A stretch of DNA of 21,347 bases. Source: a virus. The position numbers and the translations under genes were made by a program. Location: the IMG/VR virus record IMGVR_UViG_3300010155_000127, positions 1 through 21,347 of that record; one strand, written 5' to 3'. Positions within the stretch are counted from its first letter, which is position 1; each line of letters opens with the position of its first letter. Below, one piece after another: positions 1 through 4,363 of the stretch. The notes beneath the pieces were generated by a model. That model did no database searches and was not told the origin of the DNA. It was given only the letters and a program-made list of their open reading frames with translations.

Positions 1-44
1 ACCGAGGAAAGCTCGGAGGAGACAACCGAGGAAAGCTCGGAGGA
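1..44 (+). repeat. Two tandem 24-base units coding acidic TEESSEE
   Basis: Bases 1-20 and 25-44 are identical, spaced by 24 bases, and lie in frame so that each unit adds eight residues. The array may extend left of the window. It looks like slippage-type expansion within a coding tail. Confidence 0.8.
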
Positions 45-159
45 AACGGTTGAGGAAATTGATGACGGCCTGACCGATGCCGAGGCTGACTCCGACACAC
101 TGGCCAGTGCCGGCTACGGGACGGACGAGGATTACGGGGGAACTGATGAGCGTCTCTAA
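1..159 (+). CDS. C-terminal end of an acidic protein (partial)
   Basis: Frame 1 is open from the window edge to TAA at 157-159 and gives the last 52 residues of a protein that starts outside. The visible part is strongly acidic and begins with a repeated TEESSEE(E/T)T-type stretch, followed by a D/E/G-rich tail ending in TDERL. The repeat is also seen in DNA: a 20-base unit at 1-20 recurs at 25-44. Such tails are common at the ends of phage DNA-metabolism proteins and are probably disordered. No domain is visible, so the function cannot be named. The next gene starts 14 bases before this stop. Confidence 0.7.
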   Translation, partial: TEESSEETTEESSEETVEEIDDGLTDAEADSDTLASAGYGTDEDYGGTDERL

Positions 160-3061: not shown

Positions 3062-3324
3062 ACATGACTACTGAAATCGACATGGAGGGTTGTAAGCCCC
3101 CCTCTATTGAGTATTTGACCGAGAGAATAGATTGTTTAAAGGAGGATTTGTGGGAGTATGTAAGTCTTTCTGAAGACCTTGAGCGAAAGTTGGATGTTGC
3201 CCACAAAACTATTGAGTATTTGACCGAGAGAATAATCGACACATCTGGGGCTTTGGATTCTTGGCAGAACTCACATCAAGATCGCAACCCTAACCCTTGC
3301 AAGGGTGAGTTGGAGCCGTGTTAA
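3058..3324 (+). CDS. Hypothetical coiled-coil protein with internal repeat
   Basis: 88 residues from ATG 3058, which overlaps the exonuclease stop; the longer in-frame start at 3007 would lie within that gene. Residues ~16-66 are heptad-like (IEYLTERIDCLKEDLWEYV and IEYLTERIIDTSGALDSW) and probably form a coiled coil. The eight residues IEYLTERI occur twice, encoded by identical 26-base DNA. The protein is acidic, with four cysteines. I do not recognise a family. Position in the replication block suggests a DNA-metabolism accessory role, but nothing in the sequence proves it. Confidence 0.55.
   Translation: MNMTTEIDMEGCKPPSIEYLTERIDCLKEDLWEYVSLSEDLERKLDVAHKTIEYLTERIIDTSGALDSWQNSHQDRNPNPCKGELEPC
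3104..3234 (+). repeat. 26-bp exact direct repeat inside a small gene
   Basis: Bases 3104-3129 and 3209-3234 are identical (CTATTGAGTATT...GAGAATA) and lie 105 bases, or 35 codons, apart in the same frame. Both copies encode IEYLTERI. Identity at synonymous positions argues for a recent duplication or conserved DNA-level function. Confidence 0.9.
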
Positions 3325-3522
3325 GTGAGGCACTTTGATCCAGACGGGAAGGTTGTGTATGGGGAGAGTCACTGGGGTAGCGTCTCGCATCTTGTGGATC
3401 TTTGGAGGGAAGTACTTCGGGACATGGACGCAGGCCCGGTGAAGCCGGTCAAGCACCCAAGAAACCACAAAGGCGTGGAGGGAGATTCTTGCCGCCAAGA
3501 TCGGTACTGGAATGGCAGATAA
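3325..3522 (+). CDS. Hypothetical protein, 65 aa
   Basis: Opens with GTG directly after the preceding TAA, with a GGAG about nine bases upstream, and runs 11 bases into the initiator gene. The product begins MRHFDPDGKVVYGESHW and includes a LVDLWREVLRDM helix; the C-terminal third is basic and low in hydrophobics. No family is recognised. It could be genuine, since the spacing is tight and there is no other gene here, but the short length and GTG start leave doubt. Confidence 0.45.
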   Translation: MRHFDPDGKVVYGESHWGSVSHLVDLWREVLRDMDAGPVKPVKHPRNHKGVEGDSCRQDRYWNGR

Positions 3523-4363
3523 GATGAACTACATAGAGCTGGTCAACCAGTTCTGGCAGGCGGATCTCATGGAGGCAGGCATTCCATCCAACGCAACCCG
3601 CCTCTACTTTGGCCTTCTCAACATGTCCAACAGGCTGGGCTGGAAGAACCCTTTTGGGGCAACCAACCAGCAACTCGCCGCCCTCCTGAAGTGCGATATT
3701 AAGACCGTTATAAAGTGCCGCAATTTGCTCGCCAATTCGGGCCTAATAACGGTGTCTCGCGGGTGGAAGAATAAGCCCACTCTCATTACCTTAAATGAGA
3801 TAGTGTGGAATTTTTCCAGTGAAAGCTCCACACAAAGCTCCACACAAAGCTCCAGTGAAAGCTCCAACCATCATAAAACAGAAACAAAAACAAAAACTAG
3901 AATATATATAGCCCAAGTAGAAGAGGTGTTCAAAATATACCCTCGAAGGGTCGGCAAAAAAGCTGCCATCAAACGGATCCGCGAAGCCATGCATGACCAC
4001 GGTTACGAATTCATTCTGGAGAAGACCAAAGCCTACGCCAAAGCCAGAGAAGGGCTGGACATTGAATACACGCCTCATCCCGCAACTTGGTATCACCAAG
4101 GCCGCTACCTCGATGAGCCTGACACTTGGGCAGTGACCGGTTCGCAATCTGGATCCTCAAAAAGCACTACCATGTCCGATTGGGAAGCCCAGAAACAACT
4201 GGTACTTGTCGAGGCAGATATGAAGCAAATCAAGGAGACGCATGCTTACCCGTCTCCGGGCGGTGGATACTCATGGAGTGGAGTTGATCAGAAACACAAG
4301 GATGCCTTCAGAAAGCTCAGAGATAGGCGCGACGAGTTAAAGCCAATTGCCATGGGACTATGA
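3512..4363 (+). CDS. Phage replication initiator, lambda O-like
   Basis: 283 residues (ATG 3512; ATG 3524 is also possible). Residues ~8-98 form a winged-HTH domain of the phage replisome-organiser type: TRLYFGLLNMSNRLGWKNPF, then TNQQLAALLKCDIKTVIKCRNLLANSGLI. A Ser/Thr/Gln/Glu linker (101-120) and a polar stretch lead to a second domain (~137-206) with YPRRVGKKAAIKRI and TPHPATWYHQGRYLDEPDTW. This pattern is shared by many phage replication proteins thought to contact the helicase or its loader. The N-terminal domain would bind origin repeats; the linker DNA itself is a tandem repeat array (see separate entry). The stop overlaps the next start (ATGA). Confidence 0.75.
   Translation: MADKMNYIELVNQFWQADLMEAGIPSNATRLYFGLLNMSNRLGWKNPFGATNQQLAALLKCDIKTVIKCRNLLANSGLITVSRGWKNKPTLITLNEIVWNFSSESSTQSSTQSSSESSNHHKTETKTKTRIYIAQVEEVFKIYPRRVGKKAAIKRIREAMHDHGYEFILEKTKAYAKAREGLDIEYTPHPATWYHQGRYLDEPDTWAVTGSQSGSSKSTTMSDWEAQKQLVLVEADMKQIKETHAYPSPGGGYSWSGVDQKHKDAFRKLRDRRDELKPIAMGL
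3816..3912 (+). other. Candidate replication origin: four 12-bp iterons plus A/T-rich stretch
   Basis: Four 12-base units run head to tail at 3816-3863 in the order A-B-B-A (A = CCAGTGAAAGCT, B = CCACACAAAGCT). Each carries AAAGCTCCA in exact 12-base phase (3822, 3834, 3846, 3858). Directly downstream, 3868-3912 is very A/T-rich, with A-rich runs and a TATATATA tract. This lies in the linker of the initiator gene, the same position as the lambda origin within gene O. Sequence structure is seen; origin function is inferred. Confidence 0.55.

Follow-up and report, generated by a model that had tools for sequence, protein, structure and literature searches.

A candidate 12-bp iteron origin of replication within the initiator gene of a virus and its homologues

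The replication initiator gene of virus record IMGVR_UViG_3300010155_000127 very probably contains an origin of replication. The stretch of DNA analyzed here (the window) comprises 21,347 bases and is probably a fragment of the genome, given that the contigs of its relatives measure 38-45 kb. Judging from the nucleotide sequence, positions 3819-3866 together with 3874-3910 very likely constitute an in-gene iteron origin for theta replication, in which the initiator encoded by the same gene would line up head to tail on asymmetric ~9+3-bp sites. We infer that binding, melting, helicase recruitment and the start of replication take place at this array. The features of the region are as follows:

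3512-4363, + strand: replication initiator gene, 283 aa, encoding a winged helix, a hinge and a helical C-terminal domain (phrog_270, phrog_186, AF2)
3530-3793, + strand: N-terminal winged-helix DNA-binding domain, residues 7-94 (AF2; RepA_N N-domains are the best PDB fold and profile matches)
3803-3895, + strand: disordered hinge, residues 98-128 (pLDDT <50); its DNA takes in the array and the larger part of the A-rich tract
3819-3830, + strand: iteron 1, GTG+AAAGCTCCA, 12-mer GTGAAAGCTCCA (repeat search, pattern search, TRF)
3831-3842, + strand: iteron 2, CAC+AAAGCTCCA, 12-mer CACAAAGCTCCA (repeat search, pattern search, TRF)
3843-3854, + strand: iteron 3, CAC+AAAGCTCCA, 12-mer CACAAAGCTCCA (repeat search, pattern search, TRF)
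3855-3866, + strand: iteron 4, GTG+AAAGCTCCA, 12-mer GTGAAAGCTCCA (repeat search, pattern search, TRF)
3874-3910, + strand: A-rich, strand-biased tract, candidate DNA unwinding element (codon ends, family-wide profile)
3908-4351, + strand: helical C-terminal domain, residues 133-280, putative helicase/primase recruiter (AF2; phrog_9474/9327)

A repeat search located AAAGCTCCA on the + strand at positions 3822, 3834, 3846 and 3858 (spacing 12, 12, 12), and TRF reported an array at 3822-3866 with a period of 12. The initial annotation had described four 12-bp units in A-B-B-A order and exact 12-bp phase, and this arrangement was confirmed at 3819-3866. These were the only four copies in the whole 21.3-kb record; the reverse strand held none, nor did a reversed-pattern control find any. 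The array, which begins ~310 bp into the initiator gene, gave a z of 15.9 against shuffled sequence, and dyad symmetry was unsupported (palindromicity 6.14 vs. 5.96 in shuffles). When the same peptide was randomly recoded with synonymous codons at the codon usage of the virus, the observed 12-bp self-similarity was reached in none of 20,000 trials (score 26.8 vs. 7.8 +/- 3.1; p 5e-5), indicating that the array is more than the SSES/STQS linker requires. A DNA-level search of annotated phages with the window region yielded no match. Five contigs matched three AAAGCTCCA units: one was the window's near-identical relative, one encoded another initiator (L017), and the other three (L018, L019 and L020) matched within Ala/Pro/Lys- or Ser-repeat coding stretches.

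Comparison of the initiator protein with PHROGs identified phrog_270 (replication initiation; E 7.8e-24) and the DnaD-like phrog_186 (E 1e-11), while residues 106-230 matched phrog_9474/9327 (replication initiation/primosomal). The phrog_270 match supports the earlier view that this is an initiator gene, and direct repeats resembling iterons are indeed present in its hinge along with an A/T-rich element. Pfam matches were sub-threshold only, helix-turn-helix models among them, and an NCBIfam search returned no family. An AF2 model built with 21 related sequences had a mean pLDDT of 76 and a pTM of 0.35, too low for the positions of the domains relative to one another to be interpreted. Residues 98-128 were disordered in the model, between residues 7-94 and 133-280, and the array therefore does lie between the DNA-binding and C-terminal domains, as first proposed. 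The top Foldseek matches of the N-terminal domain (4pql, 4pt7 and 5kbj) were N-domains of RepA_N plasmid initiators, albeit weak (E 2.6e-3), and the top PDB profile matches, also weak (E 0.024), were likewise RepA_N initiators. Profile and fold, two methods, thus agree on the RepA_N ranking despite weak E-values. The Pfam RepA_N model (PF06970) fell below threshold on the initiator in a search whose positive control did not register.

The array was surveyed among homologues using the winged helix alone as query, which gave 80 viral loci; with annotated phages and near relatives added, 65 non-redundant genes had enough linker to test. Arrays were scored by ungapped self-match at lags of 9-30 over the 246 bp that follow the winged helix, a score of at least 16 being considered strong. 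Such scores were obtained for 46/65 homologues compared to 2/607 flank windows and 1/123 in-gene controls, with lags of 12 (33 arrays), 24 (10) and 11/22 (3). An independent scan of cellular genomes produced 29 loci, or 18 once duplicates of the first set were removed, mostly from Bacteroidota (Bacteroides, Prevotella, Hymenobacter, Chitinophaga, Pontibacter and others); 13 of the 18 had arrays, with a lag of 12 or 24 in every case, compared to 0/159 flanks. Taken together, a strong tandem array occurred directly 3' of the winged helix in 59 of 83 non-redundant homologues vs. 2 of 766 flanking control windows, in a survey de-duplicated at about 90% identity only and seeded with one winged-helix type. 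The period was 12 or 24 bp in 56 of the 59 and 11 or 22 bp in three; about 10 of the 83 had no detectable array. With a gentler mismatch penalty, a lag of 12 or 24 emerged in 13 of 24 weaker cases. The positive controls lambda O and TP901-1 rep were scored at lags 20/23 and 15, respectively. Two other winged-helix types also carried 12-bp arrays (L142/L143 and Lactobacillus phage PLE3, L027). Where the host is known, array-bearing phages are mostly those of Bacteroidota. In the replication gene of Streptococcus phage Javan10 (L026:1501-2262), a long near-exact duplication with palindrome-like parts occupies the hinge position and encodes the peptide GTVKVTGQDLNNLQ twice; it is apparently a different origin type.

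The A/T-rich stretch described after the repeats was confirmed. The 45-mer at 3866 has an A+T count of 36/45, which ties the window maximum in a record of 51% GC, and TATATATA at 3903-3910 closes the A-rich tract. Its A count (29/45) is the second-highest in the window, where another A-rich site lies at 1541-1547. A or T occupies the third position in every one of the 12 codons spanning 3875-3910 (A3 for the gene, 0.24). For the 46 arrays of the viral survey, the 45 nt on the 3' side had A at.45-.59 and A+T at.71-.75 vs. about.57 elsewhere, and the bias on the coding strand was toward A, not T. In 54 of 58 genes, A/T was more frequent at third codon positions within the tract than in the remainder of the gene (AT3.78 vs..56; Wilcoxon p 5e-10), which implies that the tract is more than a Lys/Thr/Asn-rich peptide. 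Tracts 3' of arrays (e.g., L006:5348-5370) frequently have a 6-bp rhythm (TAAAAC, CATAAA, AAGACT) that encodes Lys-X pairs; such a tract might represent a single-strand binding motif for an initiator or helicase loader.

Could the repeats be a feature of the peptide, a flexible Ser-rich linker preserved for the sake of the protein, so that repetition of the DNA is a by-product? The array does coincide with the predicted disordered hinge and 12 bp, as a multiple of 3, produces a 4-residue repeat, but the synonymous recoding null was rejected for the window and for 45 of the 46 arrays, each of which was more repetitive than recodings of its own peptide (p<0.05). Differences between units were spread evenly over the three codon positions (.31/.34/.34). 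Among codon differences of a single base, a share of 0.226 was synonymous vs. 0.216 expected without selection on the protein; outside the array, homologues displayed the usual third-position bias. An even spread without a synonymous excess indicates that the DNA is kept rather than the peptide. Moreover, three homologous initiators (L025, L043 and L105) had 11-bp arrays, and their peptides are not repeated because the reading frame rotates with that period. In many units the variable positions form one block beside a ~9-bp core, and the block can start in any codon phase. The peptides encoded by the arrays are wholly different among relatives (GNVN, DTLS, PKVE, ASRD and SSES). We therefore consider a peptide-driven repeat highly improbable. 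The proposal that one segment may serve as both origin and hinge fits, although the differences between units look like constraint on the DNA and not on the peptide.

Functionless repeats arising by replication slippage and drifting in a dispensable linker would explain the perfect copies seen in L050, L060 and L104, which recent duplication would yield. Recent tandem duplication does add to the recoding result, but not to the 11-bp arrays or to the block-and-core pattern. Slippage would not account for a single period (12, rarely 11) shared by unrelated units, nor for the absence of arrays from the flanks and the rest of the gene. Differences between copies are also often clustered beside the conserved core, and the unit tracks the DNA-binding domain at 50-60% identity. 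We assign this explanation a very small probability and retain the in-gene origin.

The protein encoded by L005 is identical to the window initiator, those of L006 and L007 are 82% identical, and those of L012-L014 are 57-64% identical in the best segment. All of them have 12-bp units at the same place, with altered unit sequences. Relatives that keep the protein without the repeats, which would have spoken against an origin, were not met among these near relatives; at 57-82% identity the 12-bp arrays were in place, that of L012 being a partly decayed AACGCCAGTGAA array. The unit is AAAGCTCCA+NNN in the window, GAATCCTCCAGT in L006, a mixture that includes GAATCCTCCAGT in L007, and AACGCCAGTATA in L014, while L013 has five 12-bp units in which the fourth codon is AGC, TCC or ACC. 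The fourth codon of the unit changed from Ser AGC to Ser TCC in 4/4 units of L006 and 3/4 of L007. Between the window and L006, each of the four copies must have acquired two base substitutions for this switch.

In sequence comparisons, the unit tracked the DNA-binding domain and not the C-terminal domain. Among pairs with C-terminal domains <30% identical, unit similarity was about 6/12, the chance level, when winged helices were <50% identical, and rose to 7.4, 8.9 and 9.3 of 12 at winged-helix identities of 50-60, 60-70 and at least 70%, respectively, although the pairs are not phylogenetically independent. An opposite-strand control gave 5.2-5.8. Conversely, when C-terminal domains were at least 50% identical and DNA-binding domains <50%, the unit was at chance (5.9; n=7). 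L080 and L089, for example, share 91% identity in the DNA-binding domain, 27% in the C-terminal domain and 11/12 positions of the unit. Part of the association is explained by linkage, since the array physically adjoins the DNA-binding domain. The overall Mantel correlation between DNA-binding domain and unit was weak (0.16, p 0.0015) and its opposite-strand control was also weakly positive (0.12, p 0.005), making the binned comparison and the subset with low C-domain identity fairer evidence. An initiator of a different winged-helix type (L017:3011-3706, - strand) has three GAAAGCTCCAAT units whose 9-bp core is identical to the window's, which may reflect convergence, transfer or chance. Next to this initiator, ATPase-like motifs mark L017:1749-3020 as a probable DnaB-type helicase gene. 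A relative of the same initiator, L143, carries three GAAAGCACCAAC units and a C-terminal domain that looks unrelated.

In the mechanism best supported by these observations, the winged-helix domain would bind the ~9-bp core of each 12-bp unit. The copies point one way and are non-palindromic, and protomers would probably sit in a head-to-tail row that could open the A-rich tract directly downstream. The C-terminal domain, flexibly tethered by a linker that the origin DNA itself encodes, may then recruit the replicative helicase/primase of host or phage. Iteron-binding initiators can autoregulate, and a multi-copy site is not by itself proof of an origin; the array might be a site at which the initiator or another phage regulator acts in autoregulation or partition, with replication starting elsewhere. 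Judged by sequence, it may also be an operator or serve to bind some other protein. The array is well inside the gene and not at its start, a melting-prone A-rich tract follows directly on the 3' side, and the location matches that of the origins established for lambda, SPP1 and pSK41. A site of regulation or partition with replication starting elsewhere is very improbable in our estimation.

Whether the origin read in the window extends to a large phage group, whose known hosts are mostly Bacteroidota, is in our judgment evenly balanced. Members of this group would have ~9+3-bp asymmetric sites at a fixed 12-bp (rarely 11-bp) pitch in the DNA that codes for the hinge, followed by a strand-biased A tract. 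The DNA-binding domain and array would form a specificity module shuffled against various C-terminal domains that recruit the helicase, and the resulting pairs would amount to a natural table of winged helices and their cognate sites. The constant pitch would stem from a head-to-tail row of the initiator with about one protomer per 12 bp. If true, this would provide a sequence-only rule for finding the origins of many uncultured phages, together with the initiators that act on them, particularly in phages of gut and environmental Bacteroidota, and dozens of natural protein-site pairs for decoding DNA recognition by winged helices. It would also predict which phages and prophages share replication specificity or act as mutual origin-based decoys.

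Several other elements were observed. Another coding repeat with a 12/24-bp period, ACCGAGGAAAGCTCGGAGGAGACA, which encodes TEESSEET, lies at window positions 1-48, ~3.8 kb upstream of the candidate origin, and at L005:1466-1533. Both it and the iteron core contain GAAAGCTC, but no such array was present in the fetched DNA of L006 and L007, and the repeat may therefore be due to chance. Positions 255-704 encode a small protein that matches the Bac_DnaA_C DNA-binding domain (E 1e-4, below the curated cut-off), and in Tenacibaculum phage Gundel_1 a gene annotated as DnaA is located just upstream of the initiator. A scan of the window for DnaA boxes found 1 site vs. 1.4 expected, giving no sign of them in the candidate origin. 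The small ORF immediately preceding the initiator contains a perfect 26-nt direct repeat (3104-3129 and 3209-3234, 105 bp apart). GC skew was positive nearly throughout the 21-kb fragment, with no clear switch at the array; nearly all long genes are on one strand, hence skew provides no test here.

In-gene origins are already known, and the 2006 account of phage replication modules by Weigel and Seitz reportedly lists them. In lambdoid phages ori sits within gene O, and in lambda, as here, iterons and then an A/T-rich region occupy a central position in the initiator gene (L111 annotation; PMC7466680). The lambda iterons, however, consist of imperfect inverted repeats of 18-19 bp that are bound by dimers (PMC7466680) and spaced 20-24 bp apart, whereas the units described here are 12 bp in length and without dyad symmetry. 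Together with the lack of a match to Phage_rep_O (PF04492) in a Pfam search and a weak match to an O-like PHROG (E 7.6e-4), this led us to abandon the lambda-type O label of the initial annotation. The novelty resides in a shared 12-bp layout with diverse units and not in one new iteron sequence. No description of a fixed, asymmetric 12-bp layout with sequence-diverse units was found in the literature, which was incompletely covered, and we suggest with caution that it is this layout that is new. The rep gene of Lactococcus phage TP901-1 also encodes a DnaD-like initiator with in-gene repeats, but the repeats are 15 bp and the N-terminal domain differs in sequence. In SPP1, oriL is within gene 38, the gene for the origin-binding protein; compared by description, it resembles the window in having direct repeats and an A/T-rich element inside an initiator-type gene (PMC6316719). 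RepA_N plasmid initiators are a better structural analogue than lambda O, and the window initiator is possibly a distant RepA_N relative. In pSK41 and pTZ2162, a winged-helix N-domain binds direct repeats at the center of its own rep gene and, as here, the repeats encode a linker and the C-domain is separate; in pSK41, where the Rep boxes are within rep, the origin-encoded linker is dispensable (PMC5703833). The window array shares with RepA_N plasmids its central position inside the initiator gene, yet RepA_N iterons are mostly semi-palindromic around an inner poly-A tract (PMC7145576), whereas the window's 12-bp units are asymmetric and the A tract is outside them. With direct repeats between the parts coding for its two domains and an adjoining A/T-rich element, the initiator gene has these two traits of in-gene iteron origins and, by analogy, would work like those of lambdoid phages, SPP1 and pSK41.
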